Positions 2,756-19,156 of a stretch of 20,854 nucleotides of DNA are shown here, piece by piece. The stretch lies in IMG/VR virus record IMGVR_UViG_3300028557_000226, positions 1-20,854 of that record; one strand, written 5' to 3'. This DNA is from a virus. Numbering within the stretch: position 1 is the stretch's first letter; every line of letters starts with the position of its first letter. Below the pieces are notes generated by a model. It had not been told where the DNA came from, did not search any database, and saw only the letters and a list, made by a program, of their open reading frames with translations. The translations under genes were made by a program, and so were the position numbers.

Positions 2756-3237
2756 AGAAAATAGCATATTTGATACTGATTGCCGGAATATTATATAATA
2801 TTATTCTGCAAAATAAAGAAAAGACCTCAACCAATCCAGTTGATAAGTTTGTTTGCTTCACAATGGATAAAATGACGGATAATTTTGTAAAAAAATTGAT
2901 TGTTGAAAGAACTGTAAAGGTACGATTAACAACATATTGGGCAAAAGGAGGTGAAACAGATAAGGATAGTGCAAAGAAAAGAAGTTATACAGGAGCCACA
3001 TTAAAAGAAGGTGTGAGCGTAGCAGTAGATCCTCGTTTGATACCCTTTTTTAAACGTTTATACATACCAAATTTAGGGCTTAGAGTAGCTCATGACACAG
3101 GAACTGCAGTCAAAGGTAAAAAGGCAAGTAAGGGAAAATTGCCTGTTATAGATGTATTTTTTGAAAAAAAGAGCGATGCCATGCTTTTTGCATATAATAA
3201 TCCTAAAATTGTTACTGTCAGTGTTTATAAATATTAA
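2752..3237 (+). CDS. Membrane-anchored 3D-domain protein, probable lytic transglycosylase-like
   Basis: Residues 1-20 (MKKIAYLILIAGILYNIILQ) form an N-terminal membrane anchor without an obvious cleavage site. Residues 57-161 form a '3D' double-psi beta-barrel as found in the MltA/Rpf-like families. Its three Asp are visible: AVDPRLIP (Asp93), AHDTGTAV (Asp115) and VIDVFFEK (Asp134). A threonine-rich entry strand (VRLTTYWA) and GATLKEGVSVAVDP are also typical. Known members cut or bind the glycan strands of peptidoglycan. The start overlaps the previous stop (ATGA), so it is co-translated with the secreted hydrolase-like protein. Its last codons contain the TATAAATA octamer used by the next gene. 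The same domain recurs, interrupted, in the baseplate protein at 8294-10003. Confidence 0.8.
   Translation: MKKIAYLILIAGILYNIILQNKEKTSTNPVDKFVCFTMDKMTDNFVKKLIVERTVKVRLTTYWAKGGETDKDSAKKRSYTGATLKEGVSVAVDPRLIPFFKRLYIPNLGLRVAHDTGTAVKGKKASKGKLPVIDVFFEKKSDAMLFAYNNPKIVTVSVYKY
3226..3233 (+). promoter_or_regulatory. Late promoter TATAAATA inside the 3' end of the 3D gene
   Basis: This is an exact match to the T4 late consensus, lying within the last codons of the upstream gene. Its last base is 6 nt before ATG 3240, so a T4-type start site would fall at or beside the start codon. Confidence 0.55.
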
Positions 3238-3239
3238 AA

Positions 3240-3785
3240 ATGCAGTTTGATGACCGCGTAAAAGAGCTTTTAAACGAAGCTGATCTACCCCCTCCCCCAC
3301 CAATACCAGCACCGCCAGCAGCTTATATACAGCAGCAAAAGGCACCTATTCATTACAGTGACATCGTGGCAGCTGCCCTTATTGGTGAAGCAGGAGGTGA
3401 AGGTGAGAAAGGCATGCAAGCAGTTATGAATGTGATCATGAACAGGGTAAAAGGAGGCGATCCGTTTCGAGGTGCAGTCAATGTTGTTTTAAAACCAAAA
3501 CAATTCAGTTTTTTTAATGAATATAATGACGGAAAAGAGCAAATGCAGGATATTATAAATAAAGCGGCAAAACATCCATATTGGGCACAAGCAAAAGAAC
3601 TGGCAATTGTTGGAATGCGTGGAAAATTACAGGATTTGACAGGAGGAGCAACTCATTATCATGTCACAAGTGGACCCAGCAAAGTTTCACCAAAATGGAG
3701 CAATCCTAAATTTGGAGGTAAAAATAGAGAAGCTTCAGCGACCAACACGATTGGTCGACACACGTTTTTTACGAATATTAAGTGA
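3240..3785 (+). CDS. SleB-family cell wall hydrolase
   Basis: The 181-residue product carries a SleB/Hydrolase_2 domain (about residues 40-179). The core motifs are AALIGEAGGEGEKGMQAVMN with probable catalytic Glu50, FSFFNEYND, and GGATHYHV, SPKW and IGRHTFF with His139, His141, Trp153 and His174. This family cuts peptidoglycan glycan strands and occurs in spore lysis and in phage endolysins. There is no signal peptide. The N-terminus is a helix (MQFDDRVKELLNEADL) followed by a Pro-rich linker (LPPPPPIPAPPAA). The same N-terminal layout occurs in the 85-residue protein encoded head-on at 3735-3992. The last 51 nt overlap that gene on the opposite strand. It may act in lysis or, if the N-terminus is a targeting tag, be packaged in the virion. 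Confidence 0.85.
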   Translation: MQFDDRVKELLNEADLPPPPPIPAPPAAYIQQQKAPIHYSDIVAAALIGEAGGEGEKGMQAVMNVIMNRVKGGDPFRGAVNVVLKPKQFSFFNEYNDGKEQMQDIINKAAKHPYWAQAKELAIVGMRGKLQDLTGGATHYHVTSGPSKVSPKWSNPKFGGKNREASATNTIGRHTFFTNIK

Positions 3786-3992
3786 TTTTTTCTTTTTGTT
3801 TTTGTTTTTAACAGGCAAAGAAAATATTATCTGACTGCTGCTTGTGTTGAAACTGTCTCCTTTGAATCCAGAAGGAGTGGCTCCATTCCGACCCCAATCA
3901 ATATTTTTGCCTTGATATGTTCCAGGAATTTTTGGTTGAGGATATATATTAAAATCTTCCAAAAGCTTTTTGATGGTATCGTTGAATTTCAT
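3735..3992 (-). CDS. Hypothetical protein with SleB-like N-terminal tag (85 aa)
   Basis: The best start is the ATG at 3992, which overlaps the stop of the upstream fibre gene (TGATG). A TTG one codon earlier is also in frame. The N-terminus MKFNDTIKKLLEDF, followed by PQPKIPG, parallels the SleB protein's MQFDDRVKELLNEA and PPPPIPA, starting at the first residue in both. The middle (GKNIDWGRNGATPSGFKGDSF) is polar and the C-terminus very basic (KNKNKKKKSLNIRKKR). No known domain is recognised. The final 51 nt run antisense to the SleB gene, so the C-terminal residues may be lightly constrained. It could be a small virion or packaged protein; this is inference from the shared N-terminus and the position behind a fibre gene. 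Confidence 0.55.
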   Translation of the reverse strand: MKFNDTIKKLLEDFNIYPQPKIPGTYQGKNIDWGRNGATPSGFKGDSFNTSSSQIIFSLPVKNKNKKKKSLNIRKKRVSTNRVGR

Positions 3993-5994: not shown

Positions 5995-8294
5995 CGAACA
6001 ATCGGATTTTGGGGAGGTGTACTTCCTTTTATATTATAAGCATTGTTCTGAGGATCTGCGACAAATCGATCAATATTGTTGCTGCTCTGGGCAACTTTTC
6101 TAACATCATTGTTCTTGGGCAGAAGATTAAGAGGAAGATTTTTAAACAAATGACTGTGACTGTATGTGAACAAACAGTCAGGTTCATGCAAATCACCATA
6201 AACCGGCCAATTTCCGCCTGAAGATCCGCCTGTGATACGGGCAGTTCCTATGCGTTTTCCATTTACCGTTTCTCCATAAACAAAAGTCTTTTCTGTTTCT
6301 TGTATTTCCACTGGGGCTGTAATGTGATGAACGGTAAGTTCTCCTTCAATATGAGCACCTCCTGCAACCACAAGATTTCGGCTCACTCCCAGGCTGGAAT
6401 CCACCATGACTTGATCATAATTTCTTTGACGTAATACCAAAATATCGCTGGTAATGACTGTTCTTTGACCGCCATCAATATTCAATTCATATTGGGCACC
6501 TATATTCACTTGTTGACCGGCAAAGCTTGTAATGGTTCCGCTCATTTCAATAGGTCCAAGGGTTTTTATGCTGATTCCTCCGGCACCTACTTGCAGTGTG
6601 TAACGATTACATGCATTGATTGTATAATTGCCCCCAGGCAGATCATCCACATGAACAGGTTCAATCAAAGGACTGCTTTTTTGATTTTCATATACCCCTT
6701 GTTCGTCAATTTGAACTTTATAATTATATATTTTTCCAGCAGGATCTATCCTTATAGATCCAAAATCATTCATGACCATGCCCACCGTATCAATTTTGTG
6801 TTTGGCAACTTCAGTGATAAGACAACCACCCAATCCTATATTTTCTTCTATTTTTGCCAAATCCACAATTTTGCTTTGATATAATTGTTCTAATTTTTTC
6901 TTTTCAGGATTTTTTTCCCAATTACCATCCATGCTGCTTGGGTTTTTTCCACTCTTTCCACATACTGGACATCTGGATGTGGGAGGAAATGCAATAGATT
7001 GTGCAGGAGAAGACTTTCCTTTGGGATCTACAGTTTCATATTTGTCTACACCATTGCTGCTGATTGTGACAACAGGAATGACCACAGTTTTAAATTGATT
7101 GTTCAGTGCAGAATATTTTCTTCCTTTGGAACAAACAGGACAGGAACCGAAACTTCCACTTTGTTTTTGATTCAAAGAACTGGTTCGATTAGGATCTCCT
7201 TCTTTTTTCTTTGTGCGATTAATTTCAAAAAGCTGTTTGATATCTGCTATAGGATCTACCAAACTTTTCCATTGTTGTTGGGCATTTGTGTTTAAATTAC
7301 CAATCTTCCAGTAAACATCTCCGGAAATAACATTGTCCATATCTCTTCCAACAAAAAGGTTTTGATAACCTTTAACTGTTAAAAATTGATCGGCCATGAT
7401 CAAAGATTGGTCGTTCTTTGTGGCCAATTTTGTTATTGTTGCATTATTAAATTCAAGGAAAGAACCAGAATAATGTGTAAGTTTGATTGTTTCCTTCATG
7501 TCTGTATTCACAATCTCCAAAGCACCACCCTTTTGACTCATGACCATCTTGTTTCGATATGTTTCTACATCGCTTCTTTGACCCTTTAAAGCTTTGTTTT
7601 TCTCATCAATATTTTCATAAGTTCCTGGATAATCTTCAGCCACACCATAATCATCATCGTATATTCCTTGCCAATCTGATTGTCCATAGCTTGCCGCCCA
7701 ATAAACAGGTCGGAGAGGGTTTCCGTCTAAAAAGAAAACCCATAGATGTGCGCCCACGTTTGGTATGCAAAACAATCCTTTTGCCCGATTACTATAACTG
7801 CTGGGAACATATGCATATGAATTTGGATTGACCCTGTTTGTATTGTTTTTAGGACTGGAATAAAAAGCATCAGAAACTCTAACTCCTGTCTTTTCTATCA
7901 AATTACCGGGTTTTTCTCCTATTCCATCAATATTTTGACTGGAATCTGTAGTGGAAAAATCATTGATTGGTTTGGTTGTTTCCAACAAGCTGCTGTCACT
8001 TATGCTACCTGTTTTTTCTGTGATATTATATCTTCCTCCACTGGATCCTCCAAAAAGAGGCATGGCACAATCAGCCCAAGGAAGTATTTTTTTCAAATCA
8101 TCAATAATGCTATTAATGCTGCTTGTAAGATTTTCTCCTACAAAATTAAATTGTTTGTCTATTTTTACTTCATTCCATTTGTTATAAACGGTTGGTGTCA
8201 CATGCGGAACAAATATCTTTAACCGTCCACGCTTTTCTGGATCGTTGTTTTGTACAACAATTCCCAAATATTGACCATCAAATCGTTTTTTCAT
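5991..8294 (-). CDS. Baseplate hub/spike protein, gp5-like OB-fold with beta-helix and zinc knuckles
   Basis: The 767-residue product begins with a gp5/VgrG-type OB-fold: YLGIVVQNNDPEKRGRLKIF (9-28) and LPWADCAMPLFG (71-82), then AKGLFCIPNVGAHLWVFFLD and GNPLRPVYWAASYG (171-204). Long beta-rich stretches follow (about 255-330 and 550-660; ISIKTLG, VNIGAQYELNIDGG), as expected for a trimeric spike. The C-terminus (PVYGDLHEPDCLFTYSHSHL, 697-716) resembles the end of other T4-like spike proteins. Unusually, residues 385-445 hold two CPVC knuckles that could bind zinc. No lysozyme domain is seen, unlike T4 gp5; muralytic domains sit instead in the upstream gene. The start overlaps that gene's stop by one base (TAATG), so the two are probably co-translated and assemble together at the tail tip. 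Confidence 0.8.
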   Translation of the reverse strand: MKKRFDGQYLGIVVQNNDPEKRGRLKIFVPHVTPTVYNKWNEVKIDKQFNFVGENLTSSINSIIDDLKKILPWADCAMPLFGGSSGGRYNITEKTGSISDSSLLETTKPINDFSTTDSSQNIDGIGEKPGNLIEKTGVRVSDAFYSSPKNNTNRVNPNSYAYVPSSYSNRAKGLFCIPNVGAHLWVFFLDGNPLRPVYWAASYGQSDWQGIYDDDYGVAEDYPGTYENIDEKNKALKGQRSDVETYRNKMVMSQKGGALEIVNTDMKETIKLTHYSGSFLEFNNATITKLATKNDQSLIMADQFLTVKGYQNLFVGRDMDNVISGDVYWKIGNLNTNAQQQWKSLVDPIADIKQLFEINRTKKKEGDPNRTSSLNQKQSGSFGSCPVCSKGRKYSALNNQFKTVVIPVVTISSNGVDKYETVDPKGKSSPAQSIAFPPTSRCPVCGKSGKNPSSMDGNWEKNPEKKKLEQLYQSKIVDLAKIEENIGLGGCLITEVAKHKIDTVGMVMNDFGSIRIDPAGKIYNYKVQIDEQGVYENQKSSPLIEPVHVDDLPGGNYTINACNRYTLQVGAGGISIKTLGPIEMSGTITSFAGQQVNIGAQYELNIDGGQRTVITSDILVLRQRNYDQVMVDSSLGVSRNLVVAGGAHIEGELTVHHITAPVEIQETEKTFVYGETVNGKRIGTARITGGSSGGNWPVYGDLHEPDCLFTYSHSHLFKNLPLNLLPKNNDVRKVAQSSNNIDRFVADPQNNAYNIKGSTPPQNPIVR

Positions 8295-10003
8295 TATATT
8301 AATCCTGCAGCTTTAAGCAGTTGTTCGCTGCTAGGGTTTTTAAAACGTTCATATCCTTTTGGATAATATGCTACTGTTGTTCTTCCAGAAGGAGAACGAA
8401 CATTTCTTCCAATTACACCGTTTCTTGGAGGTTGAACTGTGGCTGCAACAGTTCCTCCTCCACTTATCTGTTGTATCACTTTTTCAAAAGCTTGACGGGA
8501 CTTTTCTGTTTCGAAATAAACATCAATTGTAACTACCCTTTCAGGATTGCGATTATTTACTGTTTCTGTATCTGGACCAAATTCAATTTTATATTTTCCT
8601 CCATTTTTAGACATGAGATATTTCATTTTTTCACGAAAATCTGACCAATTTTCTTGAATTCCTATGCATCCTTCTGTTGCATTTGCTGCAGGATGAATCA
8701 ATAAACCAGAACGTGTATCACTATAAACAGGATCGTACACATCATTAAGATCAAATGTATCCTGACCTCTTAAAGAACCTCTTTGACTTCTGCCTGCTTG
8801 CTGACGTTGTTGCGCAGTCATATAATTAGACACTGTATATGTGCCAAAAGGAATATTCCCTCTTCCGGCACCGCCATTCACAAATTTATATTTTCCTAAA
8901 AGTGTACCATCAGTATCTTTAAGAAGCAGATTTCCTGATAATTTTGAACCTCTGCCACCTTTTCTTACAGTTTGATCGGTTGATGCTGCCCCGCTGCCTG
9001 CTTCATAAGGTAATGGAGTATTATTTTCATTACCCAATGATATTCCCCTGGATCGGGCTGCTTGTTGAGAAACCACAGCTGAACCTGTATCCATGGCAAC
9101 ACGTGTTCCCAGTCGAGGATCCTCAAAAACTATTTTTGATCCATAAGGAATGATTGAAGGATCCACTGCACAACTAATTCCTTCCACAAGGTTTCCTTGT
9201 CCTGTTGAGCTATCACCTCGAGCTGTCCATTTGTCTCCTCCACTTCCTACCTTTTCTCCTTTGCCATATGTGGTAACAACTGCTTTTATTTTAAAATCTT
9301 CACCAGAGGATGCATTTGGAACAATTGGGGATGATTGTGCCTGAGTAGTATTTGCTCCAGCAGCATTGTTTGTGTAAGTTTGGGCATTACTTATTGCCTG
9401 AGTTTGAACATTCGAATTGGCTTTTTGTGTAGTTGTATTAATAAAATTATTAATATTTTGTGGAGAAGCATTTAAATCCCTAATTTGTTTTGGAGATATA
9501 TTAGAAGGAAGCGAAGTTTGAATGGAATTTAAAACAGAACTTATGTTTGAAACATTTTGAGAAGTTTGAAATATTGAACCAACTTGCGATTGAGATGATG
9601 AAAACACGGAAGAAGATCTTTGTGCTAATTGATTGAAAGTATTTTCGAAAATAGAATCAATGTTTACACCACCTCCGGCAAAATCCGGAATTTGTATGTT
9701 GCCCTGAATTGAATTTACAGCACCTAAAAATTGATTAACAATATCAATACCTTGGGTTATTTGATTTACTTGGCCGTTTAATATTTTGCTTGAAGGAAGC
9801 GTTGGAATACTATCCAAAATACTTGTAAAACCAAAAGCAGCCGGAACTTGTTGAACCAAAGCTGTTAAATTTTCAGGATTTAATTGGCTTATTTGTTGGG
9901 ATGTTTGATCAAAATTGGGAGTGGAAGTTACTTTTTGCAATAATTGCAAATTCATTTCTGGTGCCAATTTTGACAATAATGCTGAAGATATTTCATTTGC
10001 CAT
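8294..10003 (-). CDS. Baseplate/tail protein with split 3D domain carrying an L,D-transpeptidase-like insert
   Basis: Residues 1-235 are Gln/Asn/Ser-rich helices that look structural. A 3D double-psi barrel starts at about 238 (FKIKAVVTTYGKG) with GISCAVDPSIIPYGSK (Asp281) and TRVAMDTGSAVV (Asp305). The third Asp appears only at 494 (VVTIDVYFETEKSRQAF). The 189-residue gap compares with 19 in the 3D protein at 2752-3237. The insert contains NIPFGTYTVSNYM and SGLLIHPAANATEGCIGIQ (His437, Cys446), a His...GC pattern like YkuD or DUF2778-type L,D-transpeptidase folds. The end (about 530-569) is basic. It lies directly before the gp5-like spike with a one-base overlap, so it probably supplies wall penetration at the tail tip in place of a gp5 lysozyme. 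The 3D part is confident and the insert assignment is moderate. Confidence 0.75.
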   Translation of the reverse strand: MANEISSALLSKLAPEMNLQLLQKVTSTPNFDQTSQQISQLNPENLTALVQQVPAAFGFTSILDSIPTLPSSKILNGQVNQITQGIDIVNQFLGAVNSIQGNIQIPDFAGGGVNIDSIFENTFNQLAQRSSSVFSSSQSQVGSIFQTSQNVSNISSVLNSIQTSLPSNISPKQIRDLNASPQNINNFINTTTQKANSNVQTQAISNAQTYTNNAAGANTTQAQSSPIVPNASSGEDFKIKAVVTTYGKGEKVGSGGDKWTARGDSSTGQGNLVEGISCAVDPSIIPYGSKIVFEDPRLGTRVAMDTGSAVVSQQAARSRGISLGNENNTPLPYEAGSGAASTDQTVRKGGRGSKLSGNLLLKDTDGTLLGKYKFVNGGAGRGNIPFGTYTVSNYMTAQQRQQAGRSQRGSLRGQDTFDLNDVYDPVYSDTRSGLLIHPAANATEGCIGIQENWSDFREKMKYLMSKNGGKYKIEFGPDTETVNNRNPERVVTIDVYFETEKSRQAFEKVIQQISGGGTVAATVQPPRNGVIGRNVRSPSGRTTVAYYPKGYERFKNPSSEQLLKAAGLI

Positions 10004-11359: not shown

Positions 11360-13306
11360 TTAGTTTTTAATACAAATAAAACTGGAATGACCACAATCAT
11401 ATATTCTTTCATAACCCAAGCTATCCATAATTATTCTTTCACTATATTCACACAATTCAGGATATTTTTTAACTAAAAAACTTTTGTTATATTTGTACCT
11501 ATATTCTCTAATCATGTAATTTTTTGTATAAAAATAGTTAGGATTACTATTATGACTAAATTCAAATCCTAATTTTTTATAGAGATTTCCAATAGACCAT
11601 CTTCTGTCGGCATAGGTTATAATTTTGTTCCATGAATAATTTTGTTTAAAGTAATTCAAAAGTTTTCCAGCACCTCCAGCAATCGAAAAATGAAAATTAC
11701 TGCAAAAACGAAGTAACTCATAACTACCTTCAGGCACATTTTTATGACCCATTACTAATCTTGGTTTGGCAAAAGTCATCATACTTACCAAATGTTTTTT
11801 ATAAAAAAGACCCAAACAAATGGAACTTCTATCATTTCCTTGTAAATGATATTTTTCAAGAAATTTTTGTTTCATTTTATAATCAACTATTTGAATTTCA
11901 CACTCACGGGCACCTATTGTTCTTTTTTTAATACCTAGAATTGTTTTTAATCGGCTTTCTACTATTCTTGGATGATTTAATATTTCATCTGAAAATATTT
12001 GAATCAAACGAATATTTTTTTTCTGACTATTTTCCAATTTTTCTAAATGATAAAGACGAGGATTTTTTCCACGATTTATTATTTTTCTTTCTGTGTGCCA
12101 GTATAAGCCATGTACTTCTATTGCAAGATGATGGGAAGGAATATAAAAATCTAATTCTGATCTATTTTCAAGAATTAATCTATTCCTAAATTGATATTCG
12201 ATATTATTCTTCTTTAGAAATGAAATTACAAAATTTTCTATGTTTGTTCCTTCATTAGTATGACAACATGGACAAACAGGAACCAAACCGTTCGCATAAT
12301 ATGCTTCAAATGTTTTTTCTGTTTTTGTGCATTGCCACGAATATATTTTATATTTTTCTCCACCATACTCTTGCATAGAAAAATTTGGTTTTATTTGATT
12401 TAATAAAAATAATTTATCATAGTACCGTTTTTTATGAATTTGTTTTACATATTCTGTTTTGGAAATATTTTCAACACCATATTTTTCTAAAAGAGTTTGT
12501 TTTATTTTTTCTTTTATAGAATCATTTGCAAAAGGATTTTCTACTCCAAATTTTTTCAAAAATGAATTTTTTCTGTTTTGTTTGATTTGTTCGCTTCTTT
12601 CAAGATATCTTTGTTCATACGGTAAACTATTTTTTTCTCTTATTTCTTTTCCAAGCAAAGGGGTTATAAAACCATATTTTTTTAAATTAGTTTTTTGAAT
12701 TTTCTTTTTTATTTCTGTATTTCCCGCAGGTGCAATTGTTCCGTATTTTTCTAAATTGGTTTTTTTTCTTTTATCTATGGCTTGTTGTGATTGTGTTCCA
12801 TATTCAACTCCGTATTTTTGTAAACAGGTTTTTTTTCTTTTTTCTATGATTTGTTTTTTTCTTTCTTTCCCAAATTTTTCTTCATAAGTTTTAGTCAAAT
12901 TATTTTTTAAAAGCAAAAGAGGATTTTCGACTCCATATTTTTTTAAGCATGTTTTTTTACTCTTTTCTTTTATTTCTTTGTTCTTTTGAGGATTATCCAC
13001 ACCATATTTTTCAATATTTGTTTGTATTTTTTTATTTCTAACCTCTGGACAAGCATTACTGCATATTGCTGAACAATATTTCAAATATCTATCTTTTGTT
13101 ACACTATATTTTACCGTTTTATTGCAAATTTTACAAACAGGATCTTTGGTTATATTGTTTTTTAATATATAAATCTTTTCTTTTAATGTTTTGTTTTTAT
13201 CTTTTCCTAAATTTTCAATTCTTTCATCTATCATATTACATATATGTTGATAACGTCTAATGCTTGTATAGCTTTTAGTATTAAGAATTTCATTTAAATT
13301 TTTCAT
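11360..13306 (-). CDS. Homing-endonuclease-like protein with KYGVENP repeats and a Vsr-like nuclease core
   Basis: The 648-residue product starts with a zinc-finger-like Cys cluster (Cys58, Cys61, Cys78, Cys82, Cys86). Eight degenerate repeats follow from about 96 to 288, each built on LEKYGVENP plus a basic KEIKEKxKKT helix, likely DNA-contacting. A second Cys cluster lies at 345-348 (CPCC). Residues 355-440 form a Vsr-like PD-(D/E)xK nuclease: RSELDFYIPSHHLAIEVHGL with Asp386 and Glu397, then LYWH with His404. The C-terminal 190 residues (from RTIGAREC; MTFAKPR, AGGAGKLL, TYADRRWSIG, LYKKLGFEF) resemble a domain seen beside such nucleases. Similar proteins in large phages are regarded as free-standing homing endonucleases. 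It sits right behind the capsid gene terminator, and it is more AT-rich and Lys-rich than its neighbours. Confidence 0.75.
   Translation of the reverse strand: MKNLNEILNTKSYTSIRRYQHICNMIDERIENLGKDKNKTLKEKIYILKNNITKDPVCKICNKTVKYSVTKDRYLKYCSAICSNACPEVRNKKIQTNIEKYGVDNPQKNKEIKEKSKKTCLKKYGVENPLLLLKNNLTKTYEEKFGKERKKQIIEKRKKTCLQKYGVEYGTQSQQAIDKRKKTNLEKYGTIAPAGNTEIKKKIQKTNLKKYGFITPLLGKEIREKNSLPYEQRYLERSEQIKQNRKNSFLKKFGVENPFANDSIKEKIKQTLLEKYGVENISKTEYVKQIHKKRYYDKLFLLNQIKPNFSMQEYGGEKYKIYSWQCTKTEKTFEAYYANGLVPVCPCCHTNEGTNIENFVISFLKKNNIEYQFRNRLILENRSELDFYIPSHHLAIEVHGLYWHTERKIINRGKNPRLYHLEKLENSQKKNIRLIQIFSDEILNHPRIVESRLKTILGIKKRTIGARECEIQIVDYKMKQKFLEKYHLQGNDRSSICLGLFYKKHLVSMMTFAKPRLVMGHKNVPEGSYELLRFCSNFHFSIAGGAGKLLNYFKQNYSWNKIITYADRRWSIGNLYKKLGFEFSHNSNPNYFYTKNYMIREYRYKYNKSFLVKKYPELCEYSERIIMDSLGYERIYDCGHSSFICIKN
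12443..13021 (-). repeat. Eight degenerate KYGVENP protein repeats within the endonuclease gene
   Basis: Repeat cores occur at residues about 98-106, 121-129, 142-146, 162-169, 185-193, 207-216, 250-258 and 273-280 with the pattern [LI]xKYGVENP followed by a basic helix. Spacing is mostly 21-23 residues, with longer gaps later. At DNA level only short ccatattttt-like pieces repeat, so this is a protein repeat and not a CRISPR-like array. Confidence 0.7.
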
Positions 13307-13448: not shown

Positions 13449-14945
13449 TTAGAAGTAGACGCTCTGTGTGGCAGGTGTGAAGGCTTCGCCTAGACCAACG
13501 CAAAGAATTACGTGGTAGTACAGGTTTGCCCCGAATATATTATCAACAACACCATACCGAGTCATCAATCCAACGCGAGGCGAGAAGTCGTTAGGACCAA
13601 TCGTGCGTTGAACGAGAACTGGGATGTATGGGCAGTAGATAATTCCGGTATCATAATACTCCGGCCCTTTGTAGCCGAGTAGTGCATACTCGACACGTTT
13701 AGAACGCTGCGGGTTTGTGTAAGAACCTGGATATGCTCCGAGGTTCTCAGCCTGCGCGTCTGTGCGGGTATCACGATACACGTTGAACCGACCACCGAGA
13801 TTACCAACCTTAGCAACGCCAACAGGTTGAGTGTTGACATTACCTTGGACGGGAACCCACTGGAACTCAGGAAGCATTTCCAAGATTGCGCAAATGCGAG
13901 GTGTGGCAACAATAAAGTTGGCAGCACCACGACGATTACGAACCGCAATACGGTTTGCTTCAATGATGAGTCTCTGGTAGAAGTCGCGATTTCTCTCGAC
14001 CAGCCAGCGACCATCTGCAGAAGCAGGGGACCATACGGAATATCCGGAGCCGTATCCAGCATTGAGTGCAACCTGAACCATACGAATGATCATCTCACGG
14101 TCGATTTCTGCCTGTAGCTCATAGCTCATAGCATTGGTCAACTCTGTGTCGATGTCGATACCATTCATATTCTTCAAGTCTTGTTCAAGCTCTACGGACC
14201 AGCGAGCGGCGAGCCTACGTGTTCCTGCTTCGACTGCAGTTTTCTCGAAAGAAACTTCAATCTGGGGAATCTTACCGGTAAGTTCGAATTGGCTCAGAAT
14301 CTGGGCAACACCCTGATCCGTTCCCAACATGTTGAACACATTGGAATAGGGTTGAGTTGGTGCAGCACCAGACAACTGAGAAGACGAAGTGCCTGTATAC
14401 CTTGTGTCAAGGAGCTGATAACCAAGTTCAGCACCGTTAGCAAGGGATTGAGGCTGGGCAAGAGCGCCATTAGCATTGGTTCCGCTACCGTCCACGCCAT
14501 CGTTACCAAGCTGTTTAGCAAGGTACTTGTAGCGCAGAGCAAAAGCAAGACCAACTGGACCACTCATAGGTTGTACGCCTACGATCTCGTTGGTGATTAG
14601 TTCGGGGAATGTACGACGAATCATCGGGATCAGAATCTTGGGCAGACGAGCATCACCGGTGGCATAAGAATCACGCGAGGTGATCTGACCAGGGGGATTG
14701 AACGCTGCACCAATGCTAGCTCCAGAACCGAAAACACCACCGTTACCGGCGGAATTGTCTTCGTTAACTTGGCACCATTGCTCTTGGTTTTCCAAAAGCA
14801 TGGCGGTGTTAAGACGGGTATGATCGTCTTCGATTGCCCGGACAGAATCCGAGGTATAATCGAGAACGGGTGCCCATTTTTCTAGAAGAGTCTTAGCACG
14901 ACTCTGATTGATGTAACTCGTGGGAGGAGCGATACGCTTACTCAT
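13449..14945 (-). CDS. Major capsid protein, T4 gp23-like
   Basis: The 498-residue product matches T4 gp23 in layout. The N-terminus has a helical LLEKWAPVLD (T4: LLNKWKPLLE) and a LENQEQW block. The signature region then follows: PKILIPMIRRTFPELITNEI and VGVQPMSGPVGLAFALRYKY (T4: VRRAIPNLIAFDICGVQPMNSPTGQVFALR). The C-terminal part includes YCPYIPVLVQRTIGPNDFSP and RYGVVDN. It forms the capsid shell after cleavage of an N-terminal propeptide by the prohead protease. Candidate cut sites of the hydrophobic-x-Glu type are Glu52 and Glu62, by analogy only. It has the best Shine-Dalgarno sequence in the window and ends at a strong terminator, and its base composition is less AT-rich than its neighbours, as expected for a highly expressed gene. 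It follows the scaffold gene directly. Confidence 0.95.
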   Translation of the reverse strand: MSKRIAPPTSYINQSRAKTLLEKWAPVLDYTSDSVRAIEDDHTRLNTAMLLENQEQWCQVNEDNSAGNGGVFGSGASIGAAFNPPGQITSRDSYATGDARLPKILIPMIRRTFPELITNEIVGVQPMSGPVGLAFALRYKYLAKQLGNDGVDGSGTNANGALAQPQSLANGAELGYQLLDTRYTGTSSSQLSGAAPTQPYSNVFNMLGTDQGVAQILSQFELTGKIPQIEVSFEKTAVEAGTRRLAARWSVELEQDLKNMNGIDIDTELTNAMSYELQAEIDREMIIRMVQVALNAGYGSGYSVWSPASADGRWLVERNRDFYQRLIIEANRIAVRNRRGAANFIVATPRICAILEMLPEFQWVPVQGNVNTQPVGVAKVGNLGGRFNVYRDTRTDAQAENLGAYPGSYTNPQRSKRVEYALLGYKGPEYYDTGIIYCPYIPVLVQRTIGPNDFSPRVGLMTRYGVVDNIFGANLYYHVILCVGLGEAFTPATQSVYF

Positions 14946-15022: not shown

Positions 15023-15901
15023 TTACCAACGACCAAGCTCGTTGAGATAACTTGAAGTGGATGAGTCGGCTTCAGAAGCAGGCTTTTCAGAAGCTGCTTC
15101 CTCTACAACGACACGATCAACTGTTTCAGTTTGCTCTATAGCTTCGTCGCGAATTGTTGAAAGACGCTCCTCTTCAGTTTTATTAAAGAGTTTAAGAGTA
15201 TAGTCGAAGTTTTCCTTGATGAACTCAACGTCCTTATTGCCAAGAAGCTTTTGGATATACTTCTTCTTGTTTTCAGGAAGCTCACGTGTCTTCTGTTCAA
15301 GAAGAAATGATGCTTGTGATTTGTTGAGTTCTTTTTCAAGAACTACTCCGCGCTCTTTTGCGCTTTCAAGCTCTTTACGAGCTTCATCTAATTGTTTCTT
15401 TCCGTCCATTACGGCTTCACGAATGCTTTCTTGGGCAGTCGCGGCATCAATGGCGAGAAGATTGCGAACCTTTCCGAGAATATCAACAGCACGGCGATTA
15501 GCCACTGCTTTTTTGATGTCTTCGGTAGGAACAACTTCATCAAGATAAGCTTCCAAATAGGTGCTGATATCATTGACGGTTTCATTTTTGAAATTCTTGG
15601 CTTCGCTGTTAAGAGCTTTTGTATATTTTTCAACAATAGATTTCAGCTTTCCGCTATGATTTTCATCGATAGCAGCAACAACTTTATTCAGCTTGGCAAC
15701 ATGATCTTTATCGATTGCTTCAACAAGAGATTCTAGCTTTTTGCTGTGATCTTCGTCTTGTTCAGCAAGAGCTTTTTCAACGTGTATTTTAACTTTTTCG
15801 TTAACAGAAGCTTCGAATGATTGTTGTATTTCATTCAAAGTTTGTTCGCTAAGAATATCCTTTGTGGCTTCTTTAAGTACATCAACAACGTTTTTGCTCA
15901 T
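15023..15901 (-). CDS. Prohead core scaffolding protein, gp22-like
   Basis: The 292-residue product is almost entirely charged helix and sits between the prohead protease and the capsid gene, exactly where T4 has gene 22. It starts with helices (VVDVLKEATKDILSEQTLNEI), then three tandem 15-residue repeats (49-93), a conserved-looking stretch (ISTYLEAYLDEVVPTEDIKK), and a long coiled coil at about 165-210 (QLDEARKELESAKERGVVLE). The acidic, Ser-rich tail ends in SYLNELGRW. Scaffold proteins of this class fill the prohead core, guide shell assembly and are degraded by the gp21-type protease. Sequence similarity to T4 gp22 is hard to see by eye, so the call rests on position, length and composition. 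AATAAATA copies lie just before the ATG. Confidence 0.8.
   Translation of the reverse strand: MSKNVVDVLKEATKDILSEQTLNEIQQSFEASVNEKVKIHVEKALAEQDEDHSKKLESLVEAIDKDHVAKLNKVVAAIDENHSGKLKSIVEKYTKALNSEAKNFKNETVNDISTYLEAYLDEVVPTEDIKKAVANRRAVDILGKVRNLLAIDAATAQESIREAVMDGKKQLDEARKELESAKERGVVLEKELNKSQASFLLEQKTRELPENKKKYIQKLLGNKDVEFIKENFDYTLKLFNKTEEERLSTIRDEAIEQTETVDRVVVEEAASEKPASEADSSTSSYLNELGRW
15623..15757 (-). repeat. Three tandem 15-residue repeats in the scaffold protein
   Basis: Residues 49-63 DEDHSKKLESLVEAI, 64-78 DKDHVAKLNKVVAAI and 79-93 DENHSGKLKSIVEKY are in exact 15-residue (45-nt) register. DxxH, KL and V at fixed positions are kept. They extend one amphipathic helix. Confidence 0.8.
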
Positions 15902-15932: not shown

Positions 15933-16082
15933 TTATTTTTTTAAGTGCTTAACTGCGTTTTGTATACGATTTTGTAATTTAATGTCCATCACAGAATTAA
16001 GAGCTTTTTTAGCATTATTATAATCTTTTTCAGTAAGACATTTAAGAAAATTGTTGATAAGTGACTTTTGAATATTGTACAT
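15933..16082 (-). CDS. Small protein between protease and scaffold genes (49 aa)
   Basis: A 49-residue frame runs from ATG 16082 to TAA 15933: two amphipathic helices (MYNIQKSLINNFLKCLTEKD and NNAKKALNSVMDIKLQNRI) and a basic end (AVKHLKK). A GCTAAATA octamer ends 8 nt before the ATG, overlapping the protease stop region, so it has the same start signal as its neighbours. In T4 the small prohead core proteins gp67 and gp68 are encoded beside gene 21, so a small core component is a reasonable guess from position. Sequence similarity cannot be claimed. It fills the otherwise empty 190-nt gap between the protease and scaffold genes. Confidence 0.65.
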   Translation of the reverse strand: MYNIQKSLINNFLKCLTEKDYNNAKKALNSVMDIKLQNRIQNAVKHLKK

Positions 16083-16090
16083 TGTCTTTA

Positions 16091-16098
16091 TATTTAGC
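16091..16098 (-). promoter_or_regulatory. Late-promoter-like GCTAAATA before the 49-aa gene
   Basis: The octamer ends 8 nt before ATG 16082 and overlaps the last codons and stop of the protease gene. Confidence 0.4.
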
Positions 16099-16774
16099 TT
16101 TTTGAGCTTAGTTTTCTAAAGAAAAGAACCACCTGTTCTTTCAAAAATGATTCAACATCATGCCGGGGAAGATTGCGAAGAGCATCAGAAAAACTGTCAT
16201 AAATCTCCTCATAATGTCCACTTTCTTTAAGAACGAATTGTTTACTTTCCAAAATTCCGTCAACAAAAGCTTTGGGGAACGACGGATCAGCAACACAATC
16301 AATAGCAACCAAACGAAAATCTGAAACTTTGTTAACTCCATTTGAACTTTCTGAAAGTTTACCCAAGGCACGGCTACTCATTCCTACCTTAACACCATCT
16401 TGAATTAAACTCTTAACAATCATTCCCATAGGAGTGCTAAGAACTTTACTTTTACCAAAAAACACATTTCCGTCCTGACGAAGTTCAGTGACCATGTGAC
16501 AAACCCGTTCCAAATTAACTTCAGGAGTTTGAGGATGATTCAATTCACCCATGCTACGATGATTCTTGATCATTTCTCCAGTATAGCGATTAACTTCTTT
16601 TGCCATTTCTTCCAGATTATAAATTCTACGATTACGATTGGCTTGTTCTGCCATCATGTAAGGACCTTTGATGAAAAGAGTGGCAGGTTGATTGGGATTT
16701 TTTTCTTCTAACACATATTCGAAATCTTCATTAGAAGCAGGCTTTTCTACAATAAGTTTTAATCCATCGTTCAT
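16094..16774 (-). CDS. Prohead maturation protease, T4 gp21-like
   Basis: The 226-residue product carries the hallmarks of the gp21 / S80 prohead serine protease family: GELNHPQTPEVNLERVCHMV with His80, and GVKVGMSSRALGKL with the probable nucleophile at Ser133 or Ser134. A later VAIDCVADPSF block may carry the third active residue. The N-terminal region (FIKGPYMMAEQANRNRRIYN) matches the usual 'NRNxRxY' segment of these proteases. It would cleave the scaffold, the capsid propeptide and itself inside the prohead. Its place before the scaffold and capsid genes matches T4. An exact TATAAATA ends 7 nt before the ATG, inside the end of the upstream nuclease gene. The length is close to T4 gp21. 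Confidence 0.92.
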   Translation of the reverse strand: MNDGLKLIVEKPASNEDFEYVLEEKNPNQPATLFIKGPYMMAEQANRNRRIYNLEEMAKEVNRYTGEMIKNHRSMGELNHPQTPEVNLERVCHMVTELRQDGNVFFGKSKVLSTPMGMIVKSLIQDGVKVGMSSRALGKLSESSNGVNKVSDFRLVAIDCVADPSFPKAFVDGILESKQFVLKESGHYEEIYDSFSDALRNLPRHDVESFLKEQVVLFFRKLSSKS

Positions 16775-16776
16775 GT

Positions 16777-17271
16777 TTAATTATTTATATATTTTATCTT
16801 TTTTTTCGAGTTATTTATTTTTAAATCTTTTTCAGTAAGGATAATAAACTGCATATCATGGGTTTTTGCAAAAAATTTGGCTGCTTCCCATTTTGCACAA
16901 TTTGTTACATAAGTCATTTGTTCATAGAGGATTGTGGATTTTCTACACTTGCTGTTTGTAAAATATGGTTTTTGTGTTTGTTTTTCTGGTTTTATTTCTA
17001 CAAGATATTTTTTGTAAACATCTCCTTCTTTTATTACCATGTTAAGATCCACATGATATAACCTGGTTGTTTTTGAGAATGGATGAAAATAAGGAATCTT
17101 TATGCTTTCACTTGCCCAGCGTGAAACATTTGGATTATCATCACAAAAACGAAAAAATTTCAATTCATAGGATGATCTGTAAATGATAGGTTTTTTTCCA
17201 ACATATTTTTTTTCATTTTTAGGACTGAAAACTCCCTGTATGAACCGGGAATTTTTTTGAAGAGGTATCAT
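16777..17271 (-). CDS. Head-completion nuclease, T4 gp4/TnsA-like
   Basis: The 164-residue product has the pattern of the T4 gp4-type head-completion proteins, which have a TnsA-like PD-(D/E)xK nuclease fold. Seen are YRSSYELKFFRFCDDNPNVSRWASESIKIPY (31-61, Glu36), the strand RLYHVDLNM with Asp75, and LVEIKPEKQT with Glu92 and Lys94. YRSSxELKF...W.SE..xIPY is the part most typical of these phage proteins. In T4, gp4 acts after DNA packaging to prepare the full head for tail joining. The start ATG lies 5 nt after the stop of the upstream gene with no octamer or Shine-Dalgarno sequence, so translation is probably coupled. The basic tail carries the promoter of the next gene. Confidence 0.8.
   Translation of the reverse strand: MIPLQKNSRFIQGVFSPKNEKKYVGKKPIIYRSSYELKFFRFCDDNPNVSRWASESIKIPYFHPFSKTTRLYHVDLNMVIKEGDVYKKYLVEIKPEKQTQKPYFTNSKCRKSTILYEQMTYVTNCAKWEAAKFFAKTHDMQFIILTEKDLKINNSKKKIKYINN
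16782..16789 (-). promoter_or_regulatory. Late promoter TATAAATA before the prohead protease gene
   Basis: An exact T4 late octamer that ends 7 nt before ATG 16774 and lies within the codons for the last residues (YINN) of the upstream gene. It could start a transcript for protease, small protein, scaffold and capsid. Confidence 0.6.
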
Positions 17272-18293: not shown

Positions 18294-19156
18294 AGTGTGC
18301 TGCTTATGGAAACAAAAACGGTTCCTTTGTTTGCGGTTAGACCTTCCAATAATGCATAAATTGTATTGATACGTTCATTCAAAGCAGAAATTGCACTTTG
18401 TACTGTTGTTGCAAGAAGCTGTAATGGTTCTATTCTTGCTGAAAAATAATCTGTGTTTGTAATCGGAGTAAATGCAATTGCTGATGCGACACCCCCTGAA
18501 AGATAAGCTGAACTATTGTTTATTAAATTTGTATATGCATCATATCCAAGATTCCAATTACCACTAGTTGATTTTGTTGTATTGTAAACACTGTTCCATT
18601 GATTGCTGTTTCCGCCCTGAACAGTTATTGTATCGTTGGAACTGATTGCTCCGTTTACTGTAAATTCAACTGTGGGAAAACTTGTGTTTATGCCTACTTT
18701 TCCAAGAGATGCTGTTGTAAGACCATTTCCCACGTGAAGAACTTCGATTCCATCCAAATCATAGAAACTGGCAATATCATAAATTCCTGGAGCTTGTGCA
18801 ACATAAAGTGCAGGTCCTATTCCATTATTGATTACACTAAGAGCACTTGTGGTTGTGAATATAGTATTCCTAAATACGGAATTGCCAAGTGCAGTTAAAC
18901 TTCCTAAAATTGTTATATTTTTCTGAAAAATGTTGTCTGTATCTAAACGAGCAAAATTGGCACTATTTGTTTTAAGATATGTATAAGCATTATACCATTG
19001 ATAACTATTACCTTCTAAAACCGTATGGAAAATTCCTTTAAACGGTGCTGATGGTGCAGCAACAGGATCTGTGCCACTTTCTAATACGCCAGCTGTGGGA
19101 TCAGTATGGTGTGTTGATCTGTGCAGTTTTCCATGAAAAGGGTAATTTCCGGCCAT
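18290..19156 (-). CDS. Fibre-like virion protein (288 aa)
   Basis: The 288-residue product has the N/S/T/G-rich, beta-repeat composition of phage fibres. It begins with GNYPFHGKLHRSTHHTDPTAG. Two related segments are seen: EGNSYQWYNAYTYLKTNSANF (about 48-68) and GGNSNQWNSVYNTTKSTSGNW (about 181-201). This WxxxYxxxxxxSxxW repeat is common in T4-like fibre proteins. A central VGINTSFPTVEFTVNGAISSNDTI stretch looks like the 'head-fibre' repeat that often precedes chaperone or tip domains. The C-terminus is a helix (SAISALNERINTIYALLEGL) that could trimerise. It is co-translated with the putative neck protein, so a collar fibre or whisker role is plausible. An ATTAAATA octamer ends 5 nt before the ATG. 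Confidence 0.65.
   Translation of the reverse strand: MAGNYPFHGKLHRSTHHTDPTAGVLESGTDPVAAPSAPFKGIFHTVLEGNSYQWYNAYTYLKTNSANFARLDTDNIFQKNITILGSLTALGNSVFRNTIFTTTSALSVINNGIGPALYVAQAPGIYDIASFYDLDGIEVLHVGNGLTTASLGKVGINTSFPTVEFTVNGAISSNDTITVQGGNSNQWNSVYNTTKSTSGNWNLGYDAYTNLINNSSAYLSGGVASAIAFTPITNTDYFSARIEPLQLLATTVQSAISALNERINTIYALLEGLTANKGTVFVSISSTL

Follow-up and report, generated by a model that had tools for sequence, protein, structure and literature searches.

A candidate capsid-targeting propeptide on a SleB-type hydrolase and other unrelated proteins of an uncultured T4-like phage clade

A short N-terminal element of 12-16 residues, M-x(1-3)-F-[DNSKEQ]-..-[VILFY]-..-[LIVM]-x-E, begins both a SleB-type hydrolase and an otherwise unrelated 85-residue protein of an uncultured T4-like phage, and the same kind of N-terminus stands on about a dozen unrelated protein families in related contigs, five contigs of the clade having been analysed first. 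This tag carries an aromatic residue near position 3-5, is predicted to form a short amphipathic helix and ends in [LIVM]-x-E. We infer, with a probability of roughly 0.78, that it works as a capsid-targeting propeptide, like the one on the T4 internal proteins, directing its bearers into the head and being removed there by a gp21-like protease. This reading is considered the most likely because position, length, end motif, protease partner and type of cargo are all T4-like; some of the putative cargo is nevertheless unexpected.

The window, that is, the whole stretch of DNA analysed, is the complete IMG/VR record IMGVR_UViG_3300028557_000226 (20,854 nt), a fragment of a T4-like phage genome that includes gp23-, gp22- and gp21-like genes. 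The clade is known solely from uncultured sequence. The isolates nearest by capsid protein share only ~34% identity, and a search of bacterial genomes with the gp21 query returned no relative. Gene calls and start sites in the clade come from a simple ORF caller, GTG being accepted as the start in several hydrolases.

Two convergent genes with a common N-terminus

An earlier note on this DNA, made from its letters, had described two convergent open reading frames that encode a SleB hydrolase and an 85-residue protein, and both were found where it had placed them:

3226..3233 (+): T4-type late promoter box, TATAAATA, separated by 6 nt from the hydrolase ATG
3240..3785 (+): SleB hydrolase gene (PF07486, E=7e-14, residues 53-177)
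3240..3278 (+): hydrolase N-terminal tag MQFDDRVKELLNE, predicted cut after Glu13 (left-out profile; kept in relatives)
3279..3785 (+): predicted mature hydrolase, putative cargo, with a disordered Pro-rich linker followed by the PF07486 domain
3735..3785 (both strands): 51 nt in which the two convergent genes overlap, from the coordinates
3735..3992 (-): 85-residue ORF, no Pfam or PHROG match
3957..3992 (-): tag MKFNDTIKKLLE at the start of the 85-residue protein, with cleavage predicted after Glu12 (left-out profile)
3735..3956 (-): predicted mature 85-residue protein, Lys/Arg-rich, probably disordered, putative cargo (charge, AF2, alignment A1)

The bodies of the two proteins are unrelated, as had been claimed, the hydrolase matching PF07486 (Hydrolase_2) at 52.7 bits against a curated cut-off of 27 and the other protein belonging to no family in either collection. 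At the N-terminus, where the hydrolase tag is followed by ADLPPP and that of the 85-residue protein by DFNIYP, 6 of 13 residues are identical, the highest score of the 406 window pairs; since other pairs reach 5, the pair taken alone is weak evidence and suggestive only. The tag codons agree at 21 of 33 nucleotides, with F, D and one L encoded by synonymous codons, so the likeness lies at the protein level. The shared part had been drawn to include PPPPIPA and PQPKIPG: its first ~12-16 residues are indeed common to both proteins, whereas the Pro part is not, and the Pro-rich stretch was dropped as a component of the tag, SleB relatives having either PPPPA or no Pro run behind it.

Because the pairwise match is modest, relatives were collected. 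The hydrolase tag reads MRFEDRIKQLLLE and MRFNKLVKNILE in relatives and MTFNRLVYSILE in the relative G022, where the enzyme is at 45% identity; in G001 it reads MRFNELVNEIMGD, with no E at the usual place and VNE five residues earlier, and two genomes (G023 and G024) have no SleB relative. Glu50 and Glu54 of the hydrolase are invariant in seven relatives. Among relatives of the 85-residue protein the tag ends in KKLSE, KKLTE or ARILE followed by DF, or in KKIYE followed by GL, and the end part is Lys-rich in all members, the window protein having a net charge of +13 after its tag. AF2 models, both built on shallow alignments, give the hydrolase a low-confidence helix at 3-11, behind which a disordered linker leads to the enzyme domain; for the 85-residue protein they show a single element, a helix at 3-13 (pLDDT ~79 in the first block), the remainder being of low confidence. 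The convergent neighbourhood is conserved, G022 included; the overlap measures 51 nt in three related contigs and is shorter in two others, G022 (28 nt) and G006 (4 nt). The last codons of the hydrolase gene (window 3735-3785) are opposed, on the other strand, by those for the basic C-terminal tail of the 85-residue protein, RKKRVSTNRVGR.

Occurrence and specificity of the tag

Within the window's own record the tag search returned the two known genes and no others, as a 20.9 kb fragment is too short to hold the full tagged set; run on the relatives, the search for further tagged proteins that the earlier note had proposed yielded many unrelated ones. A strict motif matched 12 genes of the clade out of 288, compared with 0.43 expected from internal positions, and 2,000 shuffles of the N-termini averaged 0.37 matches, with 4 at most. 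Since this motif was derived in part from the same data, two cleaner tests were made. The first used a gapped profile built from nine further tagged families, both window proteins being excluded from its training; this profile gave the SleB N-terminus 15.5 bits (1 of 65,966 internal 24-mers as good) and that of the 85-residue protein 15.1 bits (3 of 65,966), placing both within the best nine of 288 N-termini, and as the training families were picked by a similar motif and not found blindly, these scores place the window tags among them. Relatives of the two window proteins obtained lower scores, weak for some. The second test applied the motif, now frozen, to three relatives unused in its making (229,717, 210,956 and 211,587 bases), which gave 5 matches where 0.42 were expected (one of the five being a double call), 6 where 0.54 were and 4 where 0.56 were, so that ~1.5 of the matches are expected to be false.

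The suggestion that the tag is of a type cut after Glu is supported by an enrichment specific for the [LIVM]-x-E end. When the last residue was varied over all 20 amino acids, Glu gave 26 distinct N-termini against 1.95 expected (13x), homologues being included and thus counted more than once; other residues gave mostly 0-5x, the higher ratios for Cys and His resting on expectations below 0.5. Likewise, changing P3, two residues before Glu, from aliphatic to other classes left an enrichment of 0-2x. The tag is not general to T4-like phages, as it was absent from the examined parts of T4, S-SSM4, BUCT-ZZ01, AG-345-O18 and immuto.

Several approaches were discarded. A crude motif (21 matches against ~8 expected) was too loose and gave way to the stricter motif and the profile, while an ungapped position matrix missed the 85-residue protein's tag because of a one-residue difference in spacing, a tag that the gapped profile recovered. 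Proteins that fitted the loose motif alone, among them gp32-like ones (MSKFTSSMFETLKESL), were set aside.

Head genes, tagged cargo and known packaging systems

The window holds the following head genes and predicted processing site (↓ marks the bond after Glu):

13449..14945 (-): gp23-like major capsid protein (PF07068, E=1e-87)
14754..14771 (-): predicted capsid maturation site CQVNE↓D, after Glu62, where the block shared with the capsid-arm protein begins
15023..15901 (-): gp22-like scaffold (weak phrog_237 match, E=0.009; located between the gp21- and gp23-like genes)
16094..16774 (-): gp21-type prohead protease, the predicted processing enzyme (phrog_207, E=4e-60)
16777..17271 (-): gp4-like head closure protein (family match)

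The T4-type triad of His, Ser and Asp is conserved in the protease (alignment A3). The scaffold, whose N-terminus includes DILSE↓Q, is the predicted core to which the tag would bind.

What would be the most direct link between the tag and head processing is a tagged capsid-arm protein of 75-82 residues (L032, L038, L056-L062 and L165), composed of a tag, MGLFSNIF.KILNE, capsid residues ~59-102 and a Lys-rich tail. Its capsid-arm stretch is 68-73% identical to the capsid protein (E down to 3e-18), and the match begins at (I/V/L)NE↓DN; the tag thus takes the position of the capsid propeptide, ending precisely where the capsid protein is predicted to be cut. The CQVNE↓D site falls in the region of the LTE/LME sites of cyanophages and the FLTE site of T4 in a MAFFT alignment of imperfect placement. 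Diverged tags occur on this protein in G022 (MITFKQFVMNE) and G023 (MNKFQQFIISILE).

Other tagged proteins are acidic and core-like (MKFEQILKNKYSLLSE, MSNFDKLYEAVMSE and MAVFSKYFANIISE at their starts, the second adjoining the portal gene in G005) or very basic, with 55-90 residues. The body of one basic protein matches phrog_727 from residue 12 onward, and another has an isolated-phage match only from about residue 20. A tagged protein of 389 residues, beginning MISFKNIKTILNE, is assigned an ArdC N-terminal domain by matches to PF08401 (E=2e-5) and phrog_7245 'anti-restriction' (E=5e-12); it also contains the metallopeptidase motif HEVAHEMLHW. Its alignment to relatives in isolated phages starts only at residue ~103. 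The tags thus precede domains that are found untagged in other phages; searches of the 85-residue and capsid-arm proteins against isolated phages gave no useful match. Two small conserved proteins of the window also have an N-terminal [LIV]-x-E, at 1276-1527 (+; DLDIKEIYE↓SQ) and at 15933-16082 (-; NFLKCLTE↓KDY) between the scaffold and protease genes, and these N-termini could be weak or different tags.

According to reviews of T4 head assembly, T4 internal proteins enter the prohead core by means of N-terminal propeptides of 10-20 residues, which gp21 removes after a motif ending in Glu; the first ten residues of IPIII suffice for targeting, and Asp at the cut position blocks processing while still allowing targeting (PMC9026906, PMC5694885). 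The clade tag resembles these sequences (MKTYQEFIAE↓A in IPI-IPIII, and the related propeptides of Alt, gp67 and gp68) in being a short N-terminal element on unrelated proteins, in its aromatic and aliphatic pattern, in its [LI]-x-E end and in the gp21-type protease encoded with it. The cargo is also of the kinds found in the T4 prohead, namely acidic core-like proteins that resemble gp67/68, small basic proteins and anti-restriction-type proteins, the ArdC-type protein being parallel to the packaged anti-restriction protein IPI. On the other hand, the sequence and spacing of the tag differ from those of T4, and a SleB hydrolase, an ArdC-type protein and a capsid-arm copy are among its cargo. 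The clade profile fails to detect T4 IPIII and there is no detectable homology to MKTYQEFIAE; by eye, the G022 capsid-arm tag, which continues MNE↓E, looks T4-like.

More distant parallels exist. In phage P1, an N-terminal packaging signal is carried by anti-restriction proteins (DarB, DarA and Ddr) and is sufficient for a reporter, but it lies within the first 30 residues, is unrelated in sequence and operates in a phage that has no separate T4-type scaffold (PMC9024508). In phiKZ and SPN3US, propeptides of head-internal cargo are removed after Glu by gp21-related proteases (gp175/gp245), although they mostly exceed 100 residues and the cut follows S/A/G/T-x-E, with a small P3 where the clade has an aliphatic one (PMC5694885). 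For polyvalent proteins, it has been suggested that ArdC-type and ART domains are packaged and then injected together with the DNA (Iyer et al. 2017; PMC5512222); ArdC-type cargo is common to both systems, whereas the clade's cargo consists of separate short proteins with a tag each, the two window proteins having a single domain. Flavobacterium phage immuto (MW353175), which has gp21 and gp23, also places one N-terminal sequence on several proteins, and this sequence, FDLKKFLVENKLT, differs from the clade tag; unrelated proteins beginning FDLKKFLVENKLT.N start at 18807, 32632 and 33633 (L068).

Proposed route into the head and competing explanations

According to the propeptide reading, late in infection the tag helix would bind the prohead core, that is, the gp22-like scaffold, and the tagged proteins would be enclosed as the shell assembles around it. 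The gp21-like protease would then cut after Glu and release the mature proteins into the head interior. Of these, the 85-residue protein would become a free Lys-rich peptide, likely on the packaged DNA, and the SleB hydrolase a soluble enzyme. Least certain is what would follow for the latter, which could exit alongside the DNA and breach peptidoglycan, or be active in the cell at an early stage; delivery of the hydrolase with the DNA, while plausible, is the weakest step. A wider and distinctly more tentative proposal, to which we give somewhat less than even odds, is a packaging code across the clade in which one tag serves changing cargo: the hydrolase and the ArdC-type protein would be delivered with the DNA, and the capsid-arm protein, with its Lys-rich tail, might take a place in the lattice of the shell and hold DNA against the inner wall.

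The packaged proteins of T4 were discovered singly. A recognisable tag would allow the head cargo of large uncultured T4-like phages to be read off their sequences, and many small proteins of no assigned role could then be predicted to lie inside the head or to be injected as effectors. Such putative cargo (cell-wall hydrolase, ArdC-type protein, capsid-arm copy) bears on wall crossing, restriction evasion and the organisation of DNA in the head.

It is unlikely, but deserves serious weight, that the SleB protein is an ordinary lysis enzyme which is never delivered to the next host, its tag serving harmless storage (for example bound to the scaffold) or being a relic of a packaged ancestor. 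The hydrolase gene ends a cluster of peptidoglycan-active genes, coming after a GH108 endolysin-type gene and a 3D-domain gene with an N-terminal hydrophobic segment, and its product has no apparent signal peptide of its own, so that a role in lysis is possible. Packaging is nevertheless favoured, as the tag is kept over the large divergence of the enzyme seen in G022. Moreover, distant SleB-domain relatives lie inside large NUDIX-SleB proteins (L012 5867-9919, L013 7470-10568, L014 5885-8155 and L022 7389-10277, in gp23-encoding or related contigs), some with ART-PolyVal or nucleotidyltransferase domains, and several of these contigs also encode gp23. Such 'polyvalent' proteins are the class proposed to be co-injected with DNA, although SleB is absent from the text of the paper that describes them (PMC5512222). 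Some of the large proteins carry ART-PolyVal or polyA-polymerase/HD domains, and [LIVM]-x-E motifs occur between domains (KLSE↓AYGD, ELNE↓AYGD and LLME↓A), which might be protease sites.

We regard as improbable that the tag is a non-cleaved helix that docks its bearers to the tail, baseplate or capsid surface of the virion, or to another phage protein. Both window genes do stand beside tail-fibre and baseplate genes, that of the 85-residue protein overlapping a fibre gene by 1 nt, and the modelled short helix with a flexible linker behind it would suit docking; however, docking leaves the required [LIVM]-x-E end unexplained, as well as the capsid sequence that starts at that very Glu in the capsid-arm protein. 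Chance likeness of the two N-termini, or a nucleotide-level effect at translation starts, has a negligible probability, for although six identities in 13 are not extreme for a single pair, the left-out profile, the shuffles and the synonymous codons argue against it and the held-out genomes refute it.

Two further proteins of the window were noted. One of 569 residues in the baseplate region, at 8294-10003 (-), combines a 3D domain with a weak match to the Tlde1 domain, both of them associated with the cell wall. Another of 648 residues, at 11360-13306 (-), has many KKYGVENP-type repeats and resembles homing endonucleases or zinc fingers; it is inserted beside the capsid gene and is absent at that place in G001, G003 and G005.

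A late-type promoter box precedes the SleB gene and several other tagged genes. Its form NATAAATA was followed in the window (3226-3239 and other late genes) and in the relatives G001, G003, G005 and G022-G024. It lies 5-8 nt before a start in 31 of 108 occurrences in close contigs, and in 21 of 103, 19 of 111 and 17 of 94 in three large genomes, while in the parts of T4 and cyanophages examined it lies 21-52 nt before starts and never at 5-8 nt. This short distance predicts that the late mRNAs of the clade are leaderless.
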